Shown piece after piece: positions 23,074-36,254 of a stretch of DNA of 64,000 bases. The DNA is from Sphingomonas sp. LY29. GTDB taxonomy: Bacteria; Pseudomonadota; Alphaproteobacteria; Sphingomonadales; Sphingomonadaceae. The stretch covers positions 1,240,001 through 1,304,000 of the forward strand of contig NZ_CP141587.1 of NCBI RefSeq assembly GCF_035593985.1, read 5' to 3'. Position numbers and translations under genes: made by a program. A model generated the notes under the pieces. That model was not told the DNA's origin. It worked only from the letters and a program-made list of their open reading frames with translations, and did not search any database. Every line of letters begins with the position of its first letter. Positions within the stretch are counted from its first letter, which is position 1.

Positions 23074-25653
23074 ATGGATCTTGAGAAACTGACCGACCGC
23101 GCGCGCGGGTTCCTCCAGGCGGCACAAACGATCGCCGGACGCGAGCATCACCAGCGGATCACGCCGGGCCATTACGTCAAGGCGCTGCTCGACGACGAGC
23201 AGGGGATGGCGGTCGGCCTGATCAATGCGGCGGGGGCCGACGGACAGGCCGCGCGGCGCGAAGTCGATGCGCTGGTCGCGCGCCAGCCGGCGGTGACCGG
23301 CACCGGCGCCACGTCCGCGCCAGCAATCGACGGCGACCTCATCCGCCTGCTCGACCAGGCGCAGGCGATCGCGACCAAGGCAGGCGACACCTACGTCACC
23401 GTCGAGCGAATCCTGCTTGCCGCCGCGCTGTCGAAGGGCAGCGAGGTCGCGGAGGCGCTTGGCCGATCGGGCCTGACTCCGCAAAATCTCAACGCCGCGA
23501 TCGAAAAGCTTCGCCAGGGCCGCTCGGCCGACACGCAGGGCGCCGAGGACCGCTACGATGCGCTCAAGAAATATGCCCGCGACCTGACGCAGGCGGCGGA
23601 GGACGGCAAGCTCGACCCGGTCATCGGCCGCGACGAGGAAATACGCCGCACCATCCAGGTGCTCGCGCGCCGGACGAAGAACAATCCGGTGCTGATCGGG
23701 GAGCCCGGCGTCGGCAAGACCGCGATCGCCGAGGGTCTCGCGCTGCGCATCGCCAATGGCGACGTTCCCGACGGCCTCAAGGACCGCAAGCTGCTGTCGC
23801 TCGACATGGGCGCTCTTATCGCCGGCGCGAAATATCGCGGCGAGTTCGAGGAACGGCTGAAAGGCGTGATCGACGAGGTTCGCCAATCGGCGGGACAAAT
23901 CATCCTGTTCATCGACGAGATGCACATGATCGTCGGCGCCGGAAAGACCGAAGGGTCGATGGATGCCGGCAATTTGCTCAAGCCGGCATTGTCGCGCGGC
24001 GAGTTGCACGTCATCGGCGCGACCACGCTCGACGAATATCGCAAGCATGTTGAAAAGGATGCCGCGCTCGAACGTCGATTCCAGCCGGTGTTTGTCGGTG
24101 AGCCGACCGTTCCGGACACCATCTCGATCCTTCGCGGGCTGAAGGAAAAGTATGAGCTTCACCACGGCGTGCGCATCACCGACGCGGCGCTGGTCGCAGC
24201 GGCGACGCTGAGCAATCGCTACATTTCCGATCGCTTCCTGCCCGACAAGGCGATCGACCTCATGGACGAGGCCGCGTCGCGCCTGCGGATGGAAGTCGAA
24301 TCGAAGCCCGAGGAGATCGAGAATCTCGATCGCCGCATCATCCAGCTGAAGATCGAGCGCGAAGCGCTCAAGAAGGAGAGCGACGCCGCCTCGAAGGATC
24401 GACTCGGCACGCTCGAAGGCGAACTTGCCAACCTCGAACAACAGTCAACTGAACTGACCACGCGCTGGCAGGCCGAAAAGGAAAAGATCGGCGCCGAGGC
24501 CGAGCTGAAAGGCCAGTTGGACGCCGCCCGGATCGAACTGGAGCAGGCGCAGCGCGCCGGGGATCTCGCCAAGGCCGGCGAGCTTCAATATGGGCGCATT
24601 CCCGAGCTTGAGAAAAAGCTGGCCGACGCCGCAGCCGCGTCCAAGGGCGCCATGCTTCGCGAGGAAGTCACTGACCAGGACATCGCCTCCGTCGTCAGCC
24701 GTTGGACCGGCGTTCCCGTCGAACGGATGATGGAAGGCGAGCGCGAGAAGCTGCTGAGCATGGAGCAGGCGATCGGCGCGCGCGTCATCGGGCAGGATCA
24801 GGCGGTCAAGGCCGTCAGCGCCGCGGTCCGCCGCGCCCGCGCCGGTCTTCAGGATTCCAACCGCCCGCTCGGCTCCTTCTTGTTCCTCGGACCGACAGGC
24901 GTCGGCAAGACCGAGCTGACCAAGGCGCTCGCCCAATTCCTGTTCGACGATTCGACCGCGATGGTCCGCATCGACATGTCCGAATTCATGGAAAAGCATG
25001 CCGTGTCTCGGCTGATCGGCGCGCCGCCGGGCTATGTTGGTTATGAGGAAGGCGGCGTGCTGACCGAGGCGGTCCGGCGGCGCCCCTATCAGGTCGTGCT
25101 GTTCGACGAGGTCGAAAAGGCGCACGGCGATGTCTTTAACATCCTGTTGCAGGTGCTCGACGACGGCCGCCTGACCGACGGCCAAGGCCGCACGGTCGAC
25201 TTCACCAACACCATCATCATCCTGACCTCAAACCTCGGCAGCCAGTATCTCGCTTCACTCGGCGAGGACGAGAATGCATCGAACGTCGAAGCGCAAGTGA
25301 TGGAGGTCGTGCGCGGTCATTTCCGCCCCGAATTCCTCAATCGCCTCGACGAGATCATCCTGTTCCACCGGCTGTCGGCAAGCCACATGGGCCCGATCGT
25401 CGACATCCAGATTCAGCGGCTGCAGTCGCTGCTGCAGGATCGCAAGATTGGGTTGGAATTGACCGACGCGGCGCGCGCGTGGCTCGGACGGGTGGGCTAC
25501 GATCCCGTTTATGGAGCACGGCCGCTCAAGCGTGCGGTGCAGAAGTATCTCCAAGACCCGCTCGCCGACGAGATTCTCGCCGGCCGCGTGCACGATGGAT
25601 CGACGGTGAAGGTGGACGAGGGCGACGGCGGACTGGTGCTGACCGCCGCCTAG
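23074..25653 (+). CDS. clpB: ATP-dependent disaggregase ClpB
   Basis: 859 residues, normal length. N-terminal Clp repeat domain, first AAA+ domain with Walker [14 protein letters not shown], a central coiled-coil M-domain (about 400-520, rich in EALKKES and heptads), and the second AAA+ domain with [14 protein letters not shown] and FDEVEKAH. With DnaK/DnaJ it extracts proteins from aggregates. Ribosome site GAGGGG 8 nt upstream. The stop shares CTAG with the convergent dioxygenase gene. Confidence 0.98.
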
Positions 25654-26312
25654 GGCCGCTCCGCCCAGTGGCGCAGCAGCCGCTGCTGGACCAGTTGCAG
25701 CCGCGAGTAATTCTCCGGCTGCATCGACAGGCCCTCAAGCGCGGCGACCTCGTTCAGGTCGAATAGCAGGTTGCGGCGGAACGGATCGGCGATCTGGCTT
25801 TCGATGAAGCTGATCGCCACCAACCGCTCGCCGCGCGTGACAGGCTCAACCTCGTGGAAGGTGTCCGACGGGTAGATGATCGCTTCGCCCGGCTGCAGCC
25901 GAAAGCGCAGGCTGGCATCGCCGAGCATCACGTGCAGCGCGCCACCGTCGTAGTCGGACGGGTCGCTCAGAAAGACCGTGCAGCTGAGGTCGCTCCGCAC
26001 CACCGTCTGCCCGACATTGAGGAAGGCAGCATCCGCATGCAGGCCGTAATGCATGCCCGGCTGGTACCGCGTCAGCATTGGCGGCGCGATCCGCAGCGGA
26101 AAGGCGAACTCGCGAAACTCCTCGCTTCGCGCAAACGCACGCAGCAGCAGTTGCGAACTCGCCTGCCCCGCCTCCGCATCATGAAGCTGCTGGTTGTTCT
26201 TGGCCTTGTTGTGCGGGTTGGACGCGCGACCGTCGATGAATTGGGTGCGCGCGGCAATCCGGCGGCATTTGGCGATTTCGCCGGCGTCGAGGAGGGAAAG
26301 GATCCGGTACAT
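25650..26312 (-). CDS. PKHD-type 2OG-Fe(II) hydroxylase (PiuC-like)
   Basis: 220 residues. Prolyl-4-hydroxylase-like fold; iron ligands in [10 protein letters not shown] (HxD) and the distal His of [11 protein letters not shown], with the 2-oxoglutarate Arg in GERLVAI. The N-terminal NPHNKAKNN is typical of PiuC/Sbp-like PKHD proteins, which commonly neighbour TonB-dependent iron receptors. No signal peptide, so cytosolic. Last gene of the receptor/oxygenase/sulfotransferase run; its ATG overlaps the preceding stop by one base (TGATG). Confidence 0.92.
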
Positions 26313-27322
26313 CAGGCGCCTTGTGTGCGGCCAAGTGCGCGCTTCAGCAAGGGTGCGTTGAGGGCAGTCTCCTCAAGCATCGCCAGCGCCGCATCGATGT
26401 CCCTCGCATGGGCGCGCCCGGCTTCGGCAAGAAGGTCGGCGCGGAGCGCAGGAGTGTAATCATACTCCATCGCCTTGGAGTAGCGGCGCATCACCGGTCC
26501 AGCGAGCGCGTCATCGATTTCCACGTCGGTCAAAGCCAGCTTCAAATGCTTGACCGCGTTCGCCAGCTCTTCCTTTGGCGCCTCCAGAAAGCGGTCGAAG
26601 TCGAGCCACTGCACGCGCTCGCGCCCGATCGCGTCCTCGGAAGCCTCCAGCCCGGTCATCTCGCACGCCCAGGCGATCGCCGCGAGCTGTGCATCCGATG
26701 TCCGGTCAGGCGCACAATGGATGCCGCGTGTCGACAGTCGCCGCCGCCGATCGGCATCGAGCGTTCGCAATTCCTGCACCGAGTTCGGCCCGGCGAGGAT
26801 CGTGCATATGTAGGATCGCGCCGACGCCAGCATGAAGAGCGCGGGCATGTCCGGGCCGACCAGGAGAGGCGCCGCCTCGCTGACGAAGCTGGTCGCCTTG
26901 ACGACCGTCGCCTGCTCTGGCGCGAAACTACGTCCGGCCAACCTTGAAAGGCTGTCGGCAAGAGCTCGCCGCTCACTCTCCGGCGAGGCCAGCAGGTCGC
27001 GCAAGGCGCGCGGCTCTCGGACCGATAGGACTTCTCCCCCTTCGCCAAGCAGGCGAGCGACCAAGGTCGAGCCGACATGTCCAATGTGGAAAATCCAGCG
27101 CGCATTCGATGGGAACAGCGCCCCCGCGTCGACGACCTCTCCTAACGCGACGAGACGCGCCTCGGTCGTGGGCGACAGCATCCGGTCGTCGAGAAAGCTC
27201 GCCTGCCGATATCCCTCGACATCGAGCCGAACCAGCCGAGCCAAGCCTGCCGAAGGATCGATTGCCTGAACCAGCCACGAGGCATCGGCGGCGAAATTTT
27301 CAGGCAGGGGAAGCGGAGTCAT
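26312..27322 (-). CDS. sulfotransferase-like P-loop protein
   Basis: 336 residues, cytosolic. A P-loop FHIGHVGSTLVARLLG near residue 78 resembles the PAPS-binding GxxxSGTT loop of sulfotransferases, and SVREPRALRDL is a plausible second nucleotide-binding element. The remainder is unrecognised and helical. It sits between the two small secreted proteins and the PKHD hydroxylase on the same strand. The sulfotransferase assignment is by loop pattern only; a kinase-like P-loop role is possible. Confidence 0.65.
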   Translation of the reverse strand: MTPLPLPENFAADASWLVQAIDPSAGLARLVRLDVEGYRQASFLDDRMLSPTTEARLVALGEVVDAGALFPSNARWIFHIGHVGSTLVARLLGEGGEVLSVREPRALRDLLASPESERRALADSLSRLAGRSFAPEQATVVKATSFVSEAAPLLVGPDMPALFMLASARSYICTILAGPNSVQELRTLDADRRRRLSTRGIHCAPDRTSDAQLAAIAWACEMTGLEASEDAIGRERVQWLDFDRFLEAPKEELANAVKHLKLALTDVEIDDALAGPVMRRYSKAMEYDYTPALRADLLAEAGRAHARDIDAALAMLEETALNAPLLKRALGRTQGA

Positions 27323-27360
27323 GCCGCCGTCCTACCGGGCCGCGACACGACTGCAACCGC

Positions 27361-27621
27361 CTATTGCTGGTTGATGATCCCGACGTTCTTCTGAGCCCGC
27401 TCGACATCGTTCCGATGATCGGTTTTCTGCGCGGCCCATTCCGCCGACGTCATGCAAACGCGCTTCGACGCGAGGCGCGATCCGGTCTCCGTGATCCGCT
27501 CGCAAATCTTTTCGTTCGGATCCTTGGACACGCGCGGCCGCGACGTTTCAATCGAACTCACCTGCGCCAACGCCGGAACGGTAATCGCCACGGCGGCGAC
27601 AAATGTAACTGCCTTGAACAT
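27361..27621 (-). CDS. small secreted protein, paralogue B (86 aa)
   Basis: Signal peptide (MFKAVTFVAAVAITVPALAQ) and a mature part of about 66 residues containing KICERITETGSRLASKRVCM, then SAEWAAQKTDHRNDVERAQK and the end VGIINQQ. Two Cys probably form a disulfide. No Tyr is present. Exactly the same length as paralogue A (27656-27916) and aligned without gaps in the core. Function unknown; lies inside the TonB receptor/modification cluster. Confidence 0.85.
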   Translation of the reverse strand: MFKAVTFVAAVAITVPALAQVSSIETSRPRVSKDPNEKICERITETGSRLASKRVCMTSAEWAAQKTDHRNDVERAQKNVGIINQQ

Positions 27622-27655
27622 GCGTAAGTCCCTTCGATGCGCGGAGAGCCTTGGC

Positions 27656-27916
27656 TCAGCCGCCGTTCTTGATACCGACGTTCTGCTGCGCACGCTCGAT
27701 GTCGGTGCGGTGGCTGTTGCGCTGCGCTTCCCACTGGGCCGCGGTCATGCAGACCTTCTTGGACGACAGGCGCGAACCGGTCTCGGCGATGCGCTCGCAA
27801 ATCTGTGCGTTGGGATCCTTGGCGGGCTTGGCAGGCTTCGCGTCGGCCGGCGCGACCTGCGCCAGTGCCGGGACAGCAAACGCCGCACCGGCGAGGAGAG
27901 TAAGCGATTTCAACAT
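27656..27916 (-). CDS. small secreted protein, paralogue A (86 aa)
   Basis: Signal peptide (MLKSLTLLAGAAFAVPALAQ), a short Ala/Pro/Lys-rich linker, then QICERIAETGSRLSSKKVCM and QWEAQRNSHRTDIERAQQNV. The two-Cys core and the ends match paralogue B at most positions, so this is a tandem duplication. Unrecognised family, periplasmic or secreted. No Tyr, so it cannot be a tyrosine-sulfation target. Confidence 0.85.
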   Translation of the reverse strand: MLKSLTLLAGAAFAVPALAQVAPADAKPAKPAKDPNAQICERIAETGSRLSSKKVCMTAAQWEAQRNSHRTDIERAQQNVGIKNGG

Positions 27917-28001
27917 GTTCTTGAATCCCGCAGAAACAAAACAGGCTTCCGGTTAACAGATTGAAGCCAGCAACTCGACTCTGTTTTCGATGAATGGCGG
28001 A

Positions 28002-29627
28002 CTAAAGGGTATAGCCGAAGTGCCGCACCCACGGTTCGAGCGTCGGGAGCACCGACCTCATTTCTTCGCGATAGTGGCGCCAGCGGCCGTTCGACCGCGA
28101 ATAGAGCGGTTCGACGACCTGCGCATGGCTTGCGGTTGCGATCATTCCCCGCTTCGCGGCGATCGTGCGATGGTCGAGCATGGCCGGATCGAACGCGGTC
28201 CCGGCAAATTCGGCGATCGATCGCAATACTGGCTCAGGATGATCGATGAGGTCTTCGTACCGCACGTCGAGGACGTTGAGGCCCAGGACCGTGCGGGCCT
28301 CGGTCCACAAGGTCATGACGGCATCGTAGCAGGCGGCCGCGTCGTTCAGGGTCAGGAACGTTGCCATCGCCCAGTTCAGCTTGAACCGGGTTGCGAAGCA
28401 GCTCCACACCACGTCGCACGGATGTCGCAAGGCGAAGAGATATTTCGCGTCCGGAAACATGGCTTGGATCAAGGGCGCCCGAGATCCGCCAAGCGGCTGC
28501 TTGTCGACCTGAAGTCGGCCGGGATATCGCGCCTCTGCGCCCAGCGCCCGCCAGTAGGCGGCCCGGCGATCCTCAATATTCCCGCCCGCCTGTTCGGCAG
28601 CATCGAGAAAACCGCGCTCCTCGTGAACCTCAAGCTCGGACGATCCCATCAAGAAGGTGTCGAGCAGCGTTGTCCCGGAGCGCGGGAAGCCCAGCAGGAA
28701 AAGCGGCGAAGCGCGGCTATCGTCGGGCGCCACCTCGGGACGGTCCGACGATAATTTCCGTCGGCGGTCGGCAAGGTCGGTGAGGTAACGATGAGCTCCC
28801 GCCTCGGCATCGGGCTCATTGCGCCGGTCGGCGTCGTTCATCGCAGCAAAGGCATCCGCGGCGCGTCGATAGTCGCCAACCCGCTCGGCCAACTCGCCGA
28901 TCAATTGATGATAGGTTCCCTCCGGCAACGCGGACCGCGCCCGCTCCGCCGCTTCGAGCGCGGCCGCGAAGTCTTTCTTCTCACGCATCGCAAGAGCGTC
29001 GCCAAGCGCAATAAGGTCGTCCGAAGCGCCTGCGGAACGCGCATCGGCCATGACCTGGTCAAGCATACTCTCGCGATTGAGCGCCATCGCGAGCCCGGCA
29101 ATCCCCAGCAGCGCGTCGCGGTCGGCGGGGTGAGTGGTCAGGACCTCGCAATAGCGCTGCTCCGCCGCCTCAAGGCGCTCGGCCTCCGCCAATGCGCGAG
29201 CGGCCGCGACGCCTGTGCGTGCGTCGCCCGGATGACGATCGGCCAGCTGGTCGAGCCGGTCGGCGGCACCGGCCAAATCCCCGATGGCGTGCCGGGCGGC
29301 CGCGCCAAGATGGAGCCATTCGTCGCCCATCGGCCCGTCCACCGCCCGTCGGTCGATCGCCGCGAGCACATTCGCCTCGCCGCGCTGCATCAGGATCCGC
29401 GCGAGGCTGATCCAGGCGGGCTCATAATCGGGCGCGGCCCGCGTGGCCCGTTCGAAGCAACGCGTGGCCTCGTCGACCTGCCCCGCCTTCGCTTCGATCA
29501 TTCCGAGCATGTGCAGCATCGTCGCGTCATCAGTTTGCGCGGCAATCGCGTCGCGGAGGATCGCCCGGGCCTTGGCAACATCCCCGGCGCGATGCGCCTC
29601 CATGGCGCGATCGAGTGCCGCGCTCAT
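28002..29627 (-). CDS. TPR-sulfotransferase fusion protein
   Basis: 541 residues, cytosolic. Residues about 1-270 are TPR-like helical repeats. A sulfotransferase domain starts near 308 with the 5'-phosphosulfate loop FLLGFPRSGTTLLDTFL and the 3'-phosphate-binding FALRHPCDVVWSCF. This is the established 'TPR repeat-containing sulfotransferase' architecture; protein or small-molecule sulfation by PAPS is expected but the acceptor is unknown. The ATG overlaps the stop of the upstream TPR-oxygenase gene (ATGA). Confidence 0.93.
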   Translation of the reverse strand: MSAALDRAMEAHRAGDVAKARAILRDAIAAQTDDATMLHMLGMIEAKAGQVDEATRCFERATRAAPDYEPAWISLARILMQRGEANVLAAIDRRAVDGPMGDEWLHLGAAARHAIGDLAGAADRLDQLADRHPGDARTGVAAARALAEAERLEAAEQRYCEVLTTHPADRDALLGIAGLAMALNRESMLDQVMADARSAGASDDLIALGDALAMREKKDFAAALEAAERARSALPEGTYHQLIGELAERVGDYRRAADAFAAMNDADRRNEPDAEAGAHRYLTDLADRRRKLSSDRPEVAPDDSRASPLFLLGFPRSGTTLLDTFLMGSSELEVHEERGFLDAAEQAGGNIEDRRAAYWRALGAEARYPGRLQVDKQPLGGSRAPLIQAMFPDAKYLFALRHPCDVVWSCFATRFKLNWAMATFLTLNDAAACYDAVMTLWTEARTVLGLNVLDVRYEDLIDHPEPVLRSIAEFAGTAFDPAMLDHRTIAAKRGMIATASHAQVVEPLYSRSNGRWRHYREEMRSVLPTLEPWVRHFGYTL

Positions 29628-31108
29628 TCCAGAACGGCGACGTCGAATGCGACCGTCAGTCGCTCACCATCCGCAAACGGGCGCGTTCCGTGCCACATGG
29701 TGGACGGGAAGAGGGCAAGCCGACCCGGCTTCGGCTCGATCATTGCATAAGGTTCGCCCGTGAACCCGAGCTTCGGCTGCGGTCCGCCCAGCGTCAGATA
29801 TCCCGCGCGGTCCTCGCCGAGATCGTCGGGAAGCGCGATGTAGAGCGCGGAACTGATCCACCCCATCGGGTGGACATGGTCGCTATGCCGACCGCCCGAG
29901 GTCAGCCGAACCGACCAGGCGCCCGAAAATTCGATCGGCGACCGCTTCGGTCCCAGCAACGGATGGCGCTCGTCGTGCTTGGGCAAGCCCGCGACATGCT
30001 CGGCGACCACGCTGCGGATCGCCTCGCGCATCGCGACGATGTCGGGATCGATGTGATGAAACAGGTTGCCGTCGGTCTGGGTCCCGCCGCGCACCGATTG
30101 TTCGAGCGGCTGCCCCAGCGTCGTATGAAGCGCGCGCAGTTTCTGCGCGAGACGGTCGAGCGAGGGCAGCCGATCGGCGATATCGTACACCCCCGTGAAC
30201 CGCGCATCTCCTTCGAGCCACTTCCATCGCTCGTCGCCGAGCGTTCGCCATGCCAGCGACGCATAGGGCCAGAAGTGCCGCGCATCGGCGTGGGTCAGCC
30301 ACGGCTCGATCCGACGAGCCGCCGCGTCGGTCTTCCCCGTCCGAAGTAGGTGACGAATGTAGCGGATCGCGACGCTGCTGTCCTCGATCTCGCCCAGCGC
30401 TTCGAACATCGCCCCGGCCCGACCGTCCTCCCCCATTTCGTCGAGCGCGATCGCCTCGTTCACATCAAACAGACGGTGCTTTCCGATCGCGCGACGACCC
30501 TCCGCGATCACTGCGATCAGGCGCGGCCAGTGCTCGGCGTGGAGGAGGGATAGGATCTGGTCCCGGCGCAGGGCGAAGTCGGTCGGATGCGCCGCCAGCG
30601 CGGCATCGAAATTGTCGGTGAAGCCTTCGCGCTCACCATTGGCCCATCGCAGGTCGCTCAGCAGTTTCTGCCCAATCACCCATTGCGGGGATCGGGCGAC
30701 AATCTGGCGAAGGCCGGCGATCGCCGATTCGCCTTGTCCCGCCGCCAGAAAGGCGGCCGCCATGCCGATGATGATCTCCCCGTCCCCGGGCGCGATCTGC
30801 AGCGCGCGGGCATAGGCATCGACGCTGGGCAGACCGGCTTCGAACAGCGTGCGCGCAAGACCGTGGGCGATTCGGGCATTGGTCGGCGCCAGTTGCAGCG
30901 CGCGTTCCAGCGAAGGGATGGCAAGCTCGCGCCGGTCATACTGGCGCTGTATCAACCCGTGGAGATGCCAGGGCCTGAAATCGGCCGGCGACGCCCGCAT
31001 CGCGCGTTGGAGCGGTTCGATCATCGACGCAGCGCGCGGAGTGTCGAGCGCGGCGAGCGCTTCGCGAACGATCGTGTCGCTATCACTGCCCATCATCACT
31101 GCCGTCAC
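29624..31108 (-). CDS. TPR protein with C-terminal putative 2OG-Fe(II) oxygenase domain
   Basis: About 494 residues. TPR-like repeats occupy roughly residues 20-250. The C-terminal 110 residues fit the putative 2OG-Fe(II) oxygenase family of PF13759 type: HSDHVHPMGWISSALYIAL with iron-ligand His, the distal His in PSTMWHGTRPF, and Arg in GERLTVAFD. I chose the GTG at 31108, which makes a GTGA overlap with the preceding gene; ATG at 31096 is an alternative. Neighbours on both sides are also TPR enzymes, so the three may form one assembly. Confidence 0.9.
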   Translation of the reverse strand: MTAVMMGSDSDTIVREALAALDTPRAASMIEPLQRAMRASPADFRPWHLHGLIQRQYDRRELAIPSLERALQLAPTNARIAHGLARTLFEAGLPSVDAYARALQIAPGDGEIIIGMAAAFLAAGQGESAIAGLRQIVARSPQWVIGQKLLSDLRWANGEREGFTDNFDAALAAHPTDFALRRDQILSLLHAEHWPRLIAVIAEGRRAIGKHRLFDVNEAIALDEMGEDGRAGAMFEALGEIEDSSVAIRYIRHLLRTGKTDAAARRIEPWLTHADARHFWPYASLAWRTLGDERWKWLEGDARFTGVYDIADRLPSLDRLAQKLRALHTTLGQPLEQSVRGGTQTDGNLFHHIDPDIVAMREAIRSVVAEHVAGLPKHDERHPLLGPKRSPIEFSGAWSVRLTSGGRHSDHVHPMGWISSALYIALPDDLGEDRAGYLTLGGPQPKLGFTGEPYAMIEPKPGRLALFPSTMWHGTRPFADGERLTVAFDVAVLE

Positions 31109-32256
31109 AGACCGGCAAACCCGACGCCTGCGCGCGCGATGATCCGCGCCACCGCGGCCCGTTCCGCGGAACCAAGCGCCGGCGGCCACAGGTCCAGGAT
31201 CATCACCACGCGCAACTCGTCGCTGTCATTCCACGCCTCGTGCTCGATCGTGTCGTCGAACACGAACGCCTCGCCCGGGCGCCATTCGCGCGTCGTCGCA
31301 CCGACGCGAAAACCGCAGTGCGGCGGAACGATCAGCGGCAGATGGCACACCAGTCGCGTGTTCGCGACGCCGGTGTGCGCGGGAATGCGCGTGCGCGGCG
31401 CGAGCATCGAGAACATGGCGTTGGGCGAGGCGCCAAGAACATCGGGCTGCGGAAGCGCCGCCAGCAAAGCCATCGTCGCTGGGCAATGACGCGCATTGCG
31501 ATCGATCGTCCGGCCGTTCTGGATAAGGTGCAGCGCACTCCAGTCGCGGTTGTGGTTGAGCGCCTCCCATTGGCGAAGCGGCACCCGGTCGGGATATTGG
31601 ATGTAGGGCACCATCGCCGCCGCCTCGGCCTCCAGCAGCGTCTGGAATTCGTCGCGAATGGTCGCGGTGGCAGCCTCGAGCTTGTCCAGGAACGGAAAGT
31701 CCGCGCGGTCGTGAAATTCCCGCTCCGGCAGGCCCGGAAAGTGGAAGTGGCTCGGCTCCTGGTGGAAGACCTGCGTGGTGCGAGCATGGTTGGTGACGAA
31801 GCGCGTCAAGCGTTCTCGCTGCTCGGGCGATGCGGCCTCGCCGATCTCGGCCATCAAACCGACGGTCAACGCGTCGGCGTGGCTCGCGGCCCGATCCTTC
31901 GCGCGCTGGAAAACCGGACGCATCGCCGGCGGCATTTCCGACTCTTCAGGCGCCTGTGCGACGGCATGACCGAACGCCTCGCCAGCGCGCGCATCGCCCA
32001 GCCGGTCGAGCAGCATCGCCCTTGCCAGCAAAAGAGAAAAGTCGAGCGGCTGAAGCGCAAGCCCGCGATCCGTCGCGGCCAGTGCGCCGGGGAGGTCGCC
32101 GGACGCCCGACGCATCGCCGATAATTTGGTCCACAGCATGAACTGGCCGGGATCGCTCTCCGTCGCCTGCTCCAACAGGCGTGCCGCCCCGGCGACGTCG
32201 CCCATGGAAGCTGCCCGGTCGGCGTCCTGCTCGATGCTGGAAACGGCGTTGCTCAT
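31105..32256 (-). CDS. TPR - aspartyl/asparaginyl beta-hydroxylase protein
   Basis: 383 residues. The N-terminal 100 are TPR-like; the rest is an aspartyl/asparaginyl beta-hydroxylase domain of PF05118 type with the first iron His in RIPAHTGVANTR, the second His in DDTIEHEAWND, and the central NRDWSALHLIQNG. Fe(II)/2OG hydroxylation of Asp or Asn side chains, or of a small molecule, is expected. Cytosolic, without signal peptide. An intrinsic terminator separates it from the TonB receptor gene upstream. Confidence 0.92.
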   Translation of the reverse strand: MSNAVSSIEQDADRAASMGDVAGAARLLEQATESDPGQFMLWTKLSAMRRASGDLPGALAATDRGLALQPLDFSLLLARAMLLDRLGDARAGEAFGHAVAQAPEESEMPPAMRPVFQRAKDRAASHADALTVGLMAEIGEAASPEQRERLTRFVTNHARTTQVFHQEPSHFHFPGLPEREFHDRADFPFLDKLEAATATIRDEFQTLLEAEAAAMVPYIQYPDRVPLRQWEALNHNRDWSALHLIQNGRTIDRNARHCPATMALLAALPQPDVLGASPNAMFSMLAPRTRIPAHTGVANTRLVCHLPLIVPPHCGFRVGATTREWRPGEAFVFDDTIEHEAWNDSDELRVVMILDLWPPALGSAERAAVARIIARAGVGFAGL

Positions 32257-32283
32257 CGCGGCTCACCATGCCGCGCCTTTGCA

Positions 32284-32319
32284 CAAAAGAAAACGGCGGA
32301 CCTCCGAGGAGGCCCGCCG
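32284..32319 (-). terminator. intrinsic terminator between TonB receptor and TPR-hydroxylase genes
   Basis: Minus strand: GGCGGGCCTCC pairs with GGAGGTCCGCC (one G.T), followed by TTTTCTTTT. It lies about 27 nt after the receptor stop. The downstream enzyme genes either depend on read-through or have their own promoter between 32257 and 32283. Confidence 0.75.
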
Positions 32320-32345
32320 CAATCTTTTGGTCGAGTGCCGAAGAC

Positions 32346-35300
32346 TTAGAAGTCGACGGTGAACCCGGCGAACAAGTACCGGCCCAGCGAGTCATAGACC
32401 TGCGGGAAGGTGTTGCCGTTGCCGAAGCCGGCCGGGATGACCTGGCCACCACCGAGCGGCGGACGGCGATCAAGGATGTTGTTCGCACCGACGCGCAGGT
32501 TGAGCTGGTCGCGGATACGAGCCGAGAGCGCGAGATCGAAGTAGTTCTGCGCCTTCAGTTCCTTGTTGCCCTCGAGCACGGTGCCCGACAGATCTTCGTC
32601 GTTGCTGGCCGCATCGTTCTTCACGCGGCTGAAGTGACGCCACTGACCCGAAATCCCAATCCCCGACGGGAAGGTGAAGCCGAGACGGAACTTGTGGCGC
32701 CACTTCGGGTTCGGGGTGCCGCACTGGTTACCGAAGTAGCCGGCGCAGTCGTAGGTGATGTCGCCAAGCGGGTTGACTTCGAGCTTGTCGAGGTAGGTGC
32801 CGACGAGGCTGGCGTTGAAGTTGCCCCACGTTCCGATTTCACGGGCGTAGGACGCGTTCAGATCGACGCCGCGGGTCTTGATGCCACCCACGTTGGTGTT
32901 GATATCGGTCACGAAGCCGTTCGGTGTCAGATAGAGCGAGCCGAACTGGTCGCGGTTGATCCGATCGCAGAAGAAGGGATCAGCCGTATCCACGCACTGC
33001 GACACGATCGTGTCGAAACCGATCGTTCCGATGGCGTCCTTTACGCGGATGTCAAACCCGTCGACCGTGATCGCCAGACCCGGAATGAACCGCGGCTGGA
33101 GTACGAGACCAAGCGTATACGAGTCAGCCGTCTCCGGAGTCAGATCAGGGTTGCCACCAATGAAGCCGTTGTACTGATCGGCCACGTTGGCGCGGATCGA
33201 GCCATACTGAGCAGCGGTGACACCGGTCAGCTGGCACTGTGCCAGCGTCGCGTCCGGCTCTGCACCGGCGCACGGATCGGCAGAACCAGTCAAGCCGACC
33301 GACTGTGCCGAGAAGAGCTCGACGACGTTCGGCGCGCGGACTGCACGGTTGTAGCTGCCGCGGAGGCGAATGTCGCGAACCGGGGCAATTTCAGCTTCGA
33401 TCTTGTAGGTGTCGGTCGAGAAGCTGTTGCCGGCAACCGAGTAGTCCGAATAGCGGTAACCGCCGCGCAGCGTGAATTCGTGGATGAACGAATTGCTGAC
33501 GATCGGCACTTCGATTTCGCCGAACAGTTCCTTGACGTCGAACTTGCCGCTGACGCCGATGGTCGGGCCGCCCTGGCCGGCGAGGTCGCCGGTCGAGAAG
33601 GCCTGGTCGGTCTTCAGCGTCAGTGCTTCCTTACGATACTCGCCACCGATGTTGAGGCCGATGCCGCGATCCGCCCACGGGCTCTGGATGCCATATTCGC
33701 CCAGTTCCGCGGTGATGTTGAGGTTGGCAACGGTTTCCTGCGTGTCGCCGCGCTGGAAGCCCGGGGTCTGCAGGTAGTTCAACGCGGCCGGCGTGACGCC
33801 ACCCGGTGCGAAGATGTCGTAGGGGACGCAGTTCGGGTCGGTACCGTCGAGGACCGAGATACAAACCGGCGCGCCGGAGACCGGATCCGCAACGACCTGC
33901 TGAGCACGGCCGAGACGCGTGACCGAGAAGTCGTTGAGATAGGTTTCAGCGAGGATCGTCTTCCCGAATTGGTAGGACGCATCGTACGACAGGCCACGAC
34001 CCAGATCGCCGCGCATGCCGGCAACAATACGGTAGGCGGTGTGCTGGAGGTCGTCCTGGCGGCCACCACCTTCAACGTTACGACGAAGGGGGATCAGGAT
34101 CGCCGAGTTGAACGGACCCGTTGGGCCGTTGAACGTGGTCGGAGCGTTGAAACCAAGCAGCGGGGCCTGAAGCGGACCATCGCCGTCGGGATCGACACCG
34201 AAGATCGGGGTCTGACCCACGAGGTTGCCGAAGTTGCTGTTGAACTCGCCGTCGAACACGGCTGCGTCCGTAGGATCGTACGCCGCCGTAACGCAGATTG
34301 CGTCACGCTGTTGCGTCGAGAGCAGCGGGTTGTTGCAGTTCAGCGAGGTCGTGTTGCCGAAGTTACCCGACGGAGCGATCTGCGCGATAGACTGATCGTC
34401 CATGAACATCGCTTCGAGGTAGGGCTTGGCATAATCGCTGATCTCGAACTCGGCGAAGGCACCGGCCGTGTAACGCTCGTTCGGGCGCTGGTAGTAGTTG
34501 TACGGCGCGAAGTTGAACGGCGTCGAACCCGGAATGAAGTTCCGGCCGGTACCAACCTGGAACGTTCCGACGTTCGTGAAGAAGGTGCCGTTGGCCGACG
34601 TGCCCGAACCACCGCAGCTGTAGCGGCGACCGGTCGTTGCGATCTGAGCGGCGTTGAGGCCGGTCAGCGAACAGGCCGAATAGTCGCGGCGATCCTGGGT
34701 GATCGCGTCCTGCTTGCGGTACGTGGCATAGGCCATGATGTGACCGCGGTTATCGGCGAAGCCGGTTCCGAAGGCGACCGAGATGTCCTGCGCGCCACCG
34801 TCGGTGACCATGCCGCCGGGCCGCGGGAAGCCACGCGCGTCGATCGCGTCGGCAACGTCGTTGCTCAGACGGTTGTTGTGGTTGAACACGCTCGCCTGGC
34901 CGTCAATGCGAAGGCCGGTGAAGGTGGTGTCCATGATGAAGTTGACAACGCCCGCGACGGCGTCGGCGCCGTACACCGACGAAGCACCGCCGGTCAGGAC
35001 GTCGACGCGCTTGATCAGCGACGACGGGACGAAGTTGATGTCGGCGACCGGCGAGCGCGGGTCACCCGGCATCAGGCGGCGGCCGTTGATCAGGACGAGC
35101 GTGCGTGCCGAGCCGAGACCACGAAGGTTGACGGTGGCGGTGCCGGTCGAACCGTTCGAGACGTTCGAACCCTGCGCCGCGAACGACTGCGGCAGCGAGT
35201 TGATGAGATCTTCGGTGCGGGTCGTGCCCTGAAGCTTGACTTCCTGAGCGCTGATGACGGTGACCGGGCTGGCCGAGGTCAGGTTCGGCTGCGGAATGCG

Positions 35301-35510
35301 CGAGCCGGTGACGACGACGTCCTGGGCTTCCTGGATTTCCTCACCAGTGGCCGAGGTCGACGGCGGCGTCGTACCTTCCAAGGGAGCAGTGGTTTCCGGC
35401 GGATTCTGGTCGGCCGGCGGAACTTCCTGCGCGAAGGCAGGATTGGCGACCATGCTAGCACCGACCAGGAGGGTCGTGGCGAGCAGGCGCTGGCGGAAAT
35501 CGAGCTTCAT
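32346..35510 (-). CDS. large TonB-dependent outer-membrane receptor
   Basis: 1054 residues. A signal peptide (LLATTLLVGASMVANPAFAQ) is followed by a Pro/Thr-rich linker, a TonB-box-like DVVVTGSRIPQPN, a plug domain (EDLINSLPQSF, NLRGLGSARTLVLINGRRL) and a long 22-strand barrel ending in the aromatic YLFAGFTVDF. The barrel is of the roughly 1000-residue sphingomonad/caulobacter type, Cys- and Asn-rich in the extracellular loops. Ligand unknown; the PiuC-like hydroxylase in the same run hints at iron-linked uptake. Upstream region 35511-35735 carries a GTGTC dyad. Confidence 0.96.
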   Translation of the reverse strand: MKLDFRQRLLATTLLVGASMVANPAFAQEVPPADQNPPETTAPLEGTTPPSTSATGEEIQEAQDVVVTGSRIPQPNLTSASPVTVISAQEVKLQGTTRTEDLINSLPQSFAAQGSNVSNGSTGTATVNLRGLGSARTLVLINGRRLMPGDPRSPVADINFVPSSLIKRVDVLTGGASSVYGADAVAGVVNFIMDTTFTGLRIDGQASVFNHNNRLSNDVADAIDARGFPRPGGMVTDGGAQDISVAFGTGFADNRGHIMAYATYRKQDAITQDRRDYSACSLTGLNAAQIATTGRRYSCGGSGTSANGTFFTNVGTFQVGTGRNFIPGSTPFNFAPYNYYQRPNERYTAGAFAEFEISDYAKPYLEAMFMDDQSIAQIAPSGNFGNTTSLNCNNPLLSTQQRDAICVTAAYDPTDAAVFDGEFNSNFGNLVGQTPIFGVDPDGDGPLQAPLLGFNAPTTFNGPTGPFNSAILIPLRRNVEGGGRQDDLQHTAYRIVAGMRGDLGRGLSYDASYQFGKTILAETYLNDFSVTRLGRAQQVVADPVSGAPVCISVLDGTDPNCVPYDIFAPGGVTPAALNYLQTPGFQRGDTQETVANLNITAELGEYGIQSPWADRGIGLNIGGEYRKEALTLKTDQAFSTGDLAGQGGPTIGVSGKFDVKELFGEIEVPIVSNSFIHEFTLRGGYRYSDYSVAGNSFSTDTYKIEAEIAPVRDIRLRGSYNRAVRAPNVVELFSAQSVGLTGSADPCAGAEPDATLAQCQLTGVTAAQYGSIRANVADQYNGFIGGNPDLTPETADSYTLGLVLQPRFIPGLAITVDGFDIRVKDAIGTIGFDTIVSQCVDTADPFFCDRINRDQFGSLYLTPNGFVTDINTNVGGIKTRGVDLNASYAREIGTWGNFNASLVGTYLDKLEVNPLGDITYDCAGYFGNQCGTPNPKWRHKFRLGFTFPSGIGISGQWRHFSRVKNDAASNDEDLSGTVLEGNKELKAQNYFDLALSARIRDQLNLRVGANNILDRRPPLGGGQVIPAGFGNGNTFPQVYDSLGRYLFAGFTVDF

Positions 35511-35735: not shown

Positions 35736-36254
35736 ATGTCCCGCATTTTGATTGTCGCGAGTGTCGCGCTGCTGGCCCAGCCGGCGATCGCCCAGAAGCG
35801 CGCCCGCGCAGATTCGGCGCAAGTGCATCGCCTGCTGGGCTGCCGGGCCGAGGCCGATCCGGCCAAGCGGCTCGCCTGCTTCGACCGCGAAACCTCGTCG
35901 ATCGAAACGGCCATCGCCCGCAAGGACCTGGTCTTCGTCGATCGCGAGCGAGCCACTGCGGCGCGCAAGGATCTGTTCGGATTCTCGGTACCCAGCTTCG
36001 GCGGCCTGTTCGGCGGCGGCGACGAGGATGACATCAAGCAGATCGAGAGCACCGTCGTCGCGACGAGCCGCAATGCCGACGGGGGCTGGGTCATCACGCT
36101 GGCCGACAAGTCAGTGTGGAGCCAGACCGACGACACGCCGCTCGGGCTGTCGCCGAAGCGCGGCAACAAGGTCGTCGTCCGCCGGGCCACGCTCGGCGCC
36201 TTCCGCCTCAGCGTGAACGGGCAGCCGGGACTGAAAGTGAAGCGGGTAGGTTAG
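35736..36254 (+). CDS. periplasmic protein of unknown function
   Basis: 172 residues: signal peptide (MSRILIVASVALLAQPAIAQ), then LLGCRAEADPAKRLACFDRE, a two-Cys motif common to short periplasmic bacterial domains. A Gly-rich FGGLFGGGDEDD stretch follows, then a beta-rich C-terminal half (GGWVITLADKSVWSQTDDT). AGGGGAG ribosome site 9 nt upstream. Divergent from the TonB receptor; its stop shares four bases with the DUF2093 gene. Not assigned to a function. Confidence 0.82.
   Translation: MSRILIVASVALLAQPAIAQKRARADSAQVHRLLGCRAEADPAKRLACFDRETSSIETAIARKDLVFVDRERATAARKDLFGFSVPSFGGLFGGGDEDDIKQIESTVVATSRNADGGWVITLADKSVWSQTDDTPLGLSPKRGNKVVVRRATLGAFRLSVNGQPGLKVKRVG

Follow-up and report, generated by a model that had tools for sequence, protein, structure and literature searches.

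The window analyzed here, a 64,000-nucleotide stretch of the Sphingomonas sp. LY29 genome (one contig, 2.46 Mb), carries a modular gene set built around a TonB-dependent receptor, and its enzymes are protein-modifying in look. The open reading frame (ORF) listing and profile searches place eight genes on the minus strand at positions 25650 to 35510, from the receptor through a PKHD-type dioxygenase. Between them lie three proteins with tetratricopeptide repeats (TPR), namely, TPR-AspH (aspartyl/asparaginyl beta-hydroxylase domain), TPR-2OG (2-oxoglutarate [2OG]-Fe(II) oxygenase domain), and TPR-ST (sulfotransferase domain), followed by two small paralogous proteins that appear to be secreted (SEC1 and SEC2, of a family here called SEC) and by PLOOP, a P-loop protein whose fold is predicted to be that of a sulfotransferase. 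A preliminary description of this DNA had named the same gene families at this place and on one strand, and all were found there; it counted nine genes, whereas its own list names eight, the number found. These bacteria take up nutrients mainly through TonB receptors, most of which have no known ligand. Our preferred reading, held tentatively, is that the cytosolic enzymes modify the receptor and/or the SEC proteins before export and that the gene set is thus a receptor-maturation module.

Linkage of the module families

The 99 genomes of the window's family that were searched gave 60 retained matches to TPR-AspH (40 genomes), 110 to SEC (65 genomes), 56 to TPR-2OG at an E value of 1e-25 (53 genomes), 44 to PLOOP at 1e-10 (37 genomes), and 25 to TPR-ST at 1e-25 (20 genomes); ClpB, whose gene is the landmark of the site, was found in 98. 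The linkage is real: any two of the five module families co-localize 25 to >100 times as often as expected by chance. Within 6 kb of TPR-AspH, PLOOP lies at 16 of 60 matches (expected, 0.25) and SEC at 15 of 60 (expected, 0.50), the SEC and PLOOP profiles having been built from sequences near TPR-AspH, which biases them toward linked cases, while distant matches enter the expectation. TPR-ST is present within 6 kb of TPR-2OG in 10 of 56 cases (expected, 0.07). The families also gather within 15 kb of clpB (TPR-AspH, 19/60; SEC, 34/110; TPR-2OG, 29/56; PLOOP, 22/44; TPR-ST, 14/25), compared with expectations of 0.26 to 1.13 matches when a 3.2-Mb genome is assumed. At least one of the five is found within this distance at 52 of the 98 clpB sites, and TPR-2OG and PLOOP co-occupy just 3 of them (of 29 and 19, respectively). 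Some genomes in which the clpB site yielded no module family have other TonB receptors beside clpB (for example, L101, L104, L107, L109, and L114), and the site itself therefore seems to attract receptor genes.

A profile search of genome contigs with a 16-row alignment confirmed at least 589 relatives of TPR-AspH, the best 80 of which form the named loci; some of these end at contig ends, and at least L138, L141, and L164 are also in the family set. Within 10 kb of TPR-AspH, the named loci contain a TonB receptor in 63 of 80, TPR-ST matches in 57 (weak ones can be TPR-only), TPR-2OG in 54, the small divergent gene G186 in 49 (Caulobacteraceae included), SEC in 34, clpB in 17, and PLOOP and PKHD in 9 each. 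In a Sphingomonas metagenome-assembled genome (MAG; L154), the receptor, TPR-ST, TPR-AspH, TPR-2OG, two SEC genes, PLOOP, and PKHD stand in a row, and a receptor accompanies TPR-AspH in Caulobacteraceae (L197, L202, and L204), Steroidobacteraceae (L195), and Nevskia (L191 and L198). PKHD was found near module genes in nine loci, with PLOOP in view in eight of the nine. A further TPR-AspH and receptor locus (L203:4365-5483) comes from a contig whose title names a Klebsiella pneumoniae MAG; given its likeness to L194 and L205 of gammaproteobacteria, that title may stem from misbinning.

The composition of the set varies in the locus maps, which label the module families and a few neighbors. The receptor occurs with SEC and no enzymes in view (L083, L095, L116, and L121), with PLOOP (L117 to L119), with TPR-ST (L133), with TPR-2OG and TPR-ST (L128 and L134), and with these two plus SEC (L085, L092, and L123); fuller sets are found elsewhere. 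L093, from the same genus as the window, has the receptor, TPR-2OG, two SEC genes, and just a weak TPR-ST match. TPR-AspH, SEC, and PLOOP occur without a receptor in L046, L047, L254, and L257, all of one genus, and TPR-AspH adjoins SEC without a receptor in L033, L046, and L047. Because the maps contain such sets, the receptor is the commonest yet a nonobligatory partner, and SEC is likewise nonobligatory.

When 120 TPR-AspH loci (40 from the family, 80 named, at least 3 common to both) were scored in bits against the window protein, a receptor was found within 9 kb in 45 of 53 at 350 bits or more, in 37 of 51 between 230 and 350, and in 2 of 16 below 230. The receptor-linked TPR-AspH proteins form a subgroup, and distant paralogues mostly stand alone. 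Nineteen of the fetched family loci, which represent 40 of the 60 matches, have no receptor within 9 kb. A class-wide sample contained TPR-AspH at an E value of ≤1e-35 in 4 of 144 genomes, including the window's own; two are of the window's family. From the receptor side, with at most eight candidates scored per genome, 21 of the 33 receptors listed at ≤1e-110 in the 99 genomes have a module gene no more than 8 kb away; at 676 bits or more, 12 of 13 do, and the 13th has only clpB there. In a replication set of the 40 best-scoring SEC loci from genomes unused before, the surroundings of the best SEC (within 9 kb) included the receptor in 28, TPR-AspH in 23, PLOOP in 23, clpB in 20, TPR-ST in 6, and TPR-2OG in 1. 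The linkage proposed in the preliminary description, which scattered enzyme genes would have made accidental, is thus borne out by the co-localization and by the receptor at 63 of 80 TPR-AspH genes, but it is not universal: close TPR-AspH relatives are mostly receptor linked, those below 230 bits mostly are not, and SEC is present in 34 of 80. The earlier interpretation, that a small molecule or an exported protein connected with uptake is modified, is therefore supported in part. In one distant TPR-AspH group (L056 to L064), most members of which have similarly sized neighbors, no locus contains a receptor or a SEC gene at a distance of 9 kb or less.

Structural relatives and conserved residues of the enzymes

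TPR-AspH joins PF05118 to TPR and contains the iron and 2OG ligand segments. Its best match among solved structures is AspH (E value, 7.2e-24), and H294, H339, and R349, which align with AspH, do not vary across 16 sequences; we take H294 and H339 to mark the iron-His segments and R349 the 2OG-Arg segment. For the catalytic domain of TPR-ST, the closest relative is tyrosylprotein sulfotransferase 2 (TPST2; E value, 3.4e-11), with an alignment that spans catalytic residues 17 to 249 of 251 and a PAPS-type P-loop, PRSGTTL, common to both. No Pfam or NCBIfam profile matches PLOOP at an E value of 0.1. Its AlphaFold2 model, obtained from a 45-sequence alignment (predicted local distance difference test [pLDDT] score, 86.5; predicted template-modeling score [pTM], 0.85), gave 33 sulfotransferase-type matches in the PDB at ≤0.001, with tyrosylprotein sulfotransferases first (best, 3.1e-6); because the template-modeling scores (TM-scores) are 0.31 to 0.57 with large root mean square deviations, the likeness is partial. 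Residues S85 and T86 of the P-loop, E103, and K142 are invariant in the 45 sequences, in keeping with an active enzyme, and the earlier guess that this protein is sulfotransferase-like is matched by its predicted structure. PKHD scored 205.3 bits with the NF003974 equivalog model (PiuC family), compared with a cutoff of 143.

Among 37 TPR-only matches of the TPR-AspH query, 11 fall in or within 900 nucleotides (nt) of a TPR-2OG or TPR-ST match, weakly suggesting that the TPR domains of TPR-AspH, TPR-2OG, and TPR-ST may be related. Inspection by eye agrees with the preliminary description that the enzymes have no signal peptide. Pfam and NCBIfam profiles detected no small-molecule backbone enzyme and no peptidase or exporter gene among the eight window genes.

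Relation to described systems

TPR-AspH resembles AspH in combining TPR with a PF05118 oxygenase domain whose iron-His and 2OG-Arg segments are kept, and human AspH has the same order, TPR and then oxygenase. It differs in being cytosolic by sequence rather than a secretory-pathway protein; in addition, no EGF-like substrate was seen, and the AspH sequon is unconserved in the linked receptors. TPR-ST aligns with TPST2 nearly end to end over its catalytic domain and P-loop; unlike TPST1/2 and RaxST, it has an N-terminal TPR, a linkage to a TonB receptor, and SEC neighbors that are mostly without Tyr. A bacterial precedent is RaxST, which sulfates the gene-neighbor protein RaxX.

Peptide-modifying dioxygenases are said to have been predicted in gene clusters of bacteria in a survey by Iyer et al. 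in 2010. We found no published description of the present gene combination in the full texts searched, whose coverage leaves outside most subscription papers, all preprints, and that survey; this agrees with the preliminary description, which knew of no described function. Clusters of AspH and sulfotransferase are tabled in the available part of PMC10040529 as co-occurring with halotolerance and are numbered beside lasso-peptide and PqqD entries, and "tyrosine sulfation" stands as a COG label in tables in the accessible portion of PMC12494485. The words sulfotransferase, hydroxylase, and oxygenase are absent from the available text of PMC7142613, on sphingomonad TonB transporters.

The close relative that the preliminary description had left unnamed is CciT-CciO. 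According to the accessible part of the report (PMC12004947), CciT-supported growth of Caulobacter requires the cytoplasmic dioxygenase CciO, the substrate being unknown, and the other Fur-regulated receptors examined do not need CciO. Like CciT-CciO (and PiuA-PiuC and Fiu-YbiX), the window has a TonB receptor and a same-family PKHD dioxygenase in one cluster, with the enzyme cytosolic. For CciT-CciO, a functional need for the dioxygenase was demonstrated (PMC12004947). In the window module, six genes separate the receptor from PKHD, and PKHD is an occasional member (9/80), the commoner partners being TPR-AspH, TPR-2OG, sulfotransferases, and SEC. The two have one enzyme family in common. The window receptor reached the cutoff of none of 24 listed NCBIfam receptor models, by which a siderophore-type receptor was to be recognized (TIGR01783, 37.7 versus 223.5 bits), and no E. 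coli-type Fur box with three or fewer mismatches was found in the window, although that consensus need not hold in this group.

Proposed mechanism and residue-level tests

In the proposed mechanism, the receptor would be made in quantity, and the terminator behind its gene would hold the enzymes at low, catalytic levels. TPR-docked enzymes would then modify, in the cytosol and prior to Sec export, proteins encoded in the cluster; the AspH-type and PF13759-type oxygenases would hydroxylate side chains, and the tyrosylprotein-sulfotransferase-like enzymes (TPR-ST and PLOOP) would add sulfate. The candidate substrates would be the receptor itself and the SEC proteins, because these, G186 aside, are the recurrent nonenzyme members. 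The modified receptor, or a modified periplasmic or surface SEC partner, would bind a particular ligand. That the enzymes act on proteins is likely, given the closest relatives of the catalytic domains (TPSTs and AspH) and the TPR domains, and modification would precede export because the enzymes, judged by eye, are without signal peptides. This reading is supported by the near-full-length relationship of TPR-ST to TPSTs, the similar fold of PLOOP, the relationship of TPR-AspH to AspH, the lack of a small-molecule backbone enzyme among the eight window genes, and the receptor as the most constant partner (63/80, and a module gene near 12 of the 13 best-scoring receptors). The occurrence of SEC both beside receptors with no enzymes in view and beside TPR-AspH with no receptor also speaks for it, as does the terminator-like site behind 60 of 71 receptors.

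A number of results weigh against it. Residue-level tests on a receptor sequon, receptor positions, SEC Asp/Asn, and SEC Tyr yielded no site. The window receptor contains C-V-D-T-A-D-P-F-F-C, which fits CX[DN]X4[YF]XC, the EGF-type sequon of human AspH; the sequon was present in 1 of 60 receptors of the fetched loci (L134, which is without TPR-AspH) and was dropped as an AspH site. Among 71 receptors, the window's included, N728 tracks TPR-AspH (54/61 versus 2/10), but this distribution is mostly a clade effect, and N728 was dropped as site evidence: on the tree, Thr is the state of a single clade and of L116; TPR-AspH is in view beside five members of this clade; Asn persists in L093 and L133, which have no TPR-AspH in view; and the RAPN sequence looks generic. 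Tyr467 and Tyr513 accompany TPR-ST in the same 71 receptors (41/57 versus 1/14 and 45/57 versus 3/14); both follow the main clade, and because ten TPR-ST-positive receptors outside it have neither, the pattern looks like descent, and both were dropped as evidence of a sulfation site.

The SEC proteins fared no better as substrates. An Asp or Asn four residues before the first Cys ([D/N]-x3-C) went with AspH in 30 of 35 versus 12 of 27 sequences of the discovery set, where Lys/Arg at the +4 column was stronger. The prediction, fixed beforehand, failed in new loci (16/26 versus 14/20; P = 0.76; 40 of 60 planned loci, one without SEC by the pattern), and the site was dropped. Of the 31 SECs that have a TPR-ST match no more than 6 kb away, 7 contain a Tyr in the scored region, and neither window SEC contains one, which rules out SEC as a general substrate of Tyr sulfation. 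Moreover, in the part of the CciT report available (PMC12004947), cells without CciO still produce CciT protein, and the published models concern cargo or an inhibitor.

A broader extension of receptor maturation, which we consider rather unlikely, is that, in the cytosol of sphingomonads and their relatives, swappable TPR-docked enzymes beta-hydroxylate Asp/Asn and sulfate side chains of outer membrane receptors and of their secreted partners, thereby tuning receptor specificity, as a bacterial counterpart of the AspH and tyrosine-sulfation chemistry of the eukaryotic secretory pathway.

More generally, a conserved enzyme set with a protein-modifying look, tied to one receptor lineage, would imply that specificity is not defined by receptor sequence alone. 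It would extend CciT's unexplained need for a cytosolic dioxygenase to a larger enzyme set and would provide a well-defined setting for asking why cytosolic oxygenases and sulfotransferases are needed by an outer membrane receptor.

Alternative explanations

The main competing explanation, somewhat unlikely in our estimation, is that the cytosolic enzymes make, modify, or degrade the ligand imported by the receptor, as modeled for CciT-CciO and suggested for PiuC and YbiX. In its favor are the membership of PKHD in the PiuC/YbiX family, the rank of the receptor as commonest partner, and the need of CciT function for cytoplasmic CciO, for which the authors' models in the accessible text are substrate synthesis, inhibitor removal, and substrate oxidation (PMC12004947). 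However, because PKHD occurs in only 9 of the 80 named loci, the CciO parallel covers one gene; the remaining catalytic domains resemble protein-modifying enzymes, the window genes include no backbone-forming enzyme (elsewhere, few unlabeled neighbors were profile-searched), and the SEC pairs are left unexplained. A second alternative, which we regard as improbable, is a ribosomal peptide system with the receptor as importer: SEC would give rise to a peptide or small protein that is modified and exported, binds the nutrient, and is taken back up through the receptor. SEC does adjoin the receptor, often in tandem (36/110 within 1.5 kb), and TPR-AspH occurs with SEC and no receptor in L033, L046, L047, L254, and L257, the last four from one genus. 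Against such a system, in which every enzyme locus should have a precursor gene, L128, L133, and L134 have a receptor and one or more enzymes with no SEC in view, and 46 of the 80 named loci, some cut at contig ends, are without SEC. Furthermore, SECs near TPR-ST mostly have no Tyr, the AspH-residue prediction failed, and the window's eight genes include no peptidase or exporter.

It is highly improbable, in our view, that the clpB side is simply a hot spot collecting envelope genes, the neighbors being functionally unrelated. The occupancy of 52 of 98 clpB sites, the other receptors at several module-free sites, and the many distant TPR-AspH paralogues elsewhere without receptor or SEC would fit a hot spot, but the families stay together away from clpB, which is in view at 17 of the 80 named loci (some contigs are short). 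L202 (Caulobacter) and L190, L194, and L195 (gammaproteobacteria) combine receptor, TPR-AspH, PLOOP, and PKHD, and L046 and L047 keep TPR-AspH, SEC, and PLOOP about 36 kb from clpB.

Gene layout and the terminator-like hairpin

The features of the locus are given in Table 1. The gap from the receptor to TPR-AspH is 89 nt, and TPR-2OG overlaps TPR-ST by 4 nt and PLOOP overlaps PKHD by 1 nt; this spacing and these overlaps suggest that TPR-AspH through PKHD form one operon. The TPR-2OG ORF reaches upstream to a GTG at 31189, and its start is probably the ATG at 31096, 8 nt past the end of TPR-AspH. The signal-peptide-like nature of the SEC1 and SEC2 N termini was judged by eye. G186 has no Pfam match at an E value of 0.01 and one subthreshold match at 0.025.

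Table 1. Features of the receptor locus and its flanks (window positions)
Feature	Position	Strand	Evidence
TonB-dependent receptor, 1054 aa, N terminus signal-peptide-like	32346..35510	-	PF07715, E 1.1e-21; PF00593, E 9.2e-32
Intrinsic-terminator-like hairpin in receptor/enzyme gap	32293..32320	-	12-pair stem plus T-run
TPR-AspH (TPR plus aspartyl/asparaginyl beta-hydroxylase), 383 aa	31105..32256	-	PF05118, E 2.6e-43
TPR-2OG (TPR plus PF13759 2OG-Fe(II) oxygenase), about 490 aa	29624..31096	-	PF13759, E 1.2e-19
TPR-ST (TPR plus sulfotransferase), 541 aa	28002..29627	-	Sulfotransfer_3 PF13469, E 5.7e-26
SEC1, small protein secreted by sequence, 86 aa, two core Cys	27656..27916	-	Invariant residues in homologues; predicted hairpin plus helix
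SEC2, paralogue of SEC1, 86 aa, 57% identical	27361..27621	-	ORF and sequence comparison
PLOOP, sulfotransferase-fold protein (predicted structure), 336 aa	26312..27322	-	AlphaFold2 model and PDB matches
PKHD-type Fe(II)/2OG dioxygenase of the PiuC/YbiX/CciO kind, 220 aa	25650..26312	-	NF003974; PF13640, E 2.2e-12
clpB, convergent neighbor, site landmark, outside the module	23074..25653	+	Recurs at module sites in the family
G186, small divergent gene adjoining the receptor, start signal-peptide-like	35736..36254	+	Recurs with the receptor

Across the whole region, terminator-like sites are not above chance (6 versus 7.2 in shuffles); among them, the stem of the hairpin that separates the receptor from the enzymes is much the longest. 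In 71 related receptors scoring above 650 bits, a terminator-like site lies within 120 nt past the receptor stop codon in 60, compared with 2 of 355 mononucleotide shuffles, and the position of the hairpin is kept across genomes while the stem sequences differ. Terminators are ordinary behind strongly expressed genes; the notable point is how often enzyme genes on the same strand lie close behind this one. This would be consistent with a dosage arrangement that provides the enzymes in catalytic amounts.

The SEC family

Residues C40, G47, S48, C56, T58, and W62 of SEC are invariant among 14 and 41 homologues. The model consists of a two-strand hairpin with one core Cys per strand, followed by a helix; its mean pLDDT is moderate (72.3), with core blocks at 78 to 91. 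No Pfam family matches the window SECs at an E value of 0.1, and the SEC profile matches 220 database proteins. Among the 120 matches listed, P0055 (HNO88_003594) of Novosphingobium chloroacetimidivorans is named a YARHG-domain protein by one source; it lies two locus tags from the PLOOP homologue P0226 (HNO88_003596). Tandem arrangement is frequent in the 99 family genomes, where 36 of 110 SEC matches are within 1.5 kb of another.

The family also varies in form. One member (G388 C1:1765217-1765447) has a stop codon inside the matched stretch, and another (L033:9358-9762) has two cores. The latter locus contains the window genome's second TPR-AspH (L033:8176-9762; G000 C1:1846175-1847761), which is followed by the SEC-like gene with two SEC-type cores and adjoins an ftsH-like gene, with no receptor in view. 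In L078, L080, L087, L088, L091, and L094, SEC genes, some in tandem, have no receptor in view, and their neighbors are alike in size and order, so that this looks like a second conserved SEC site.

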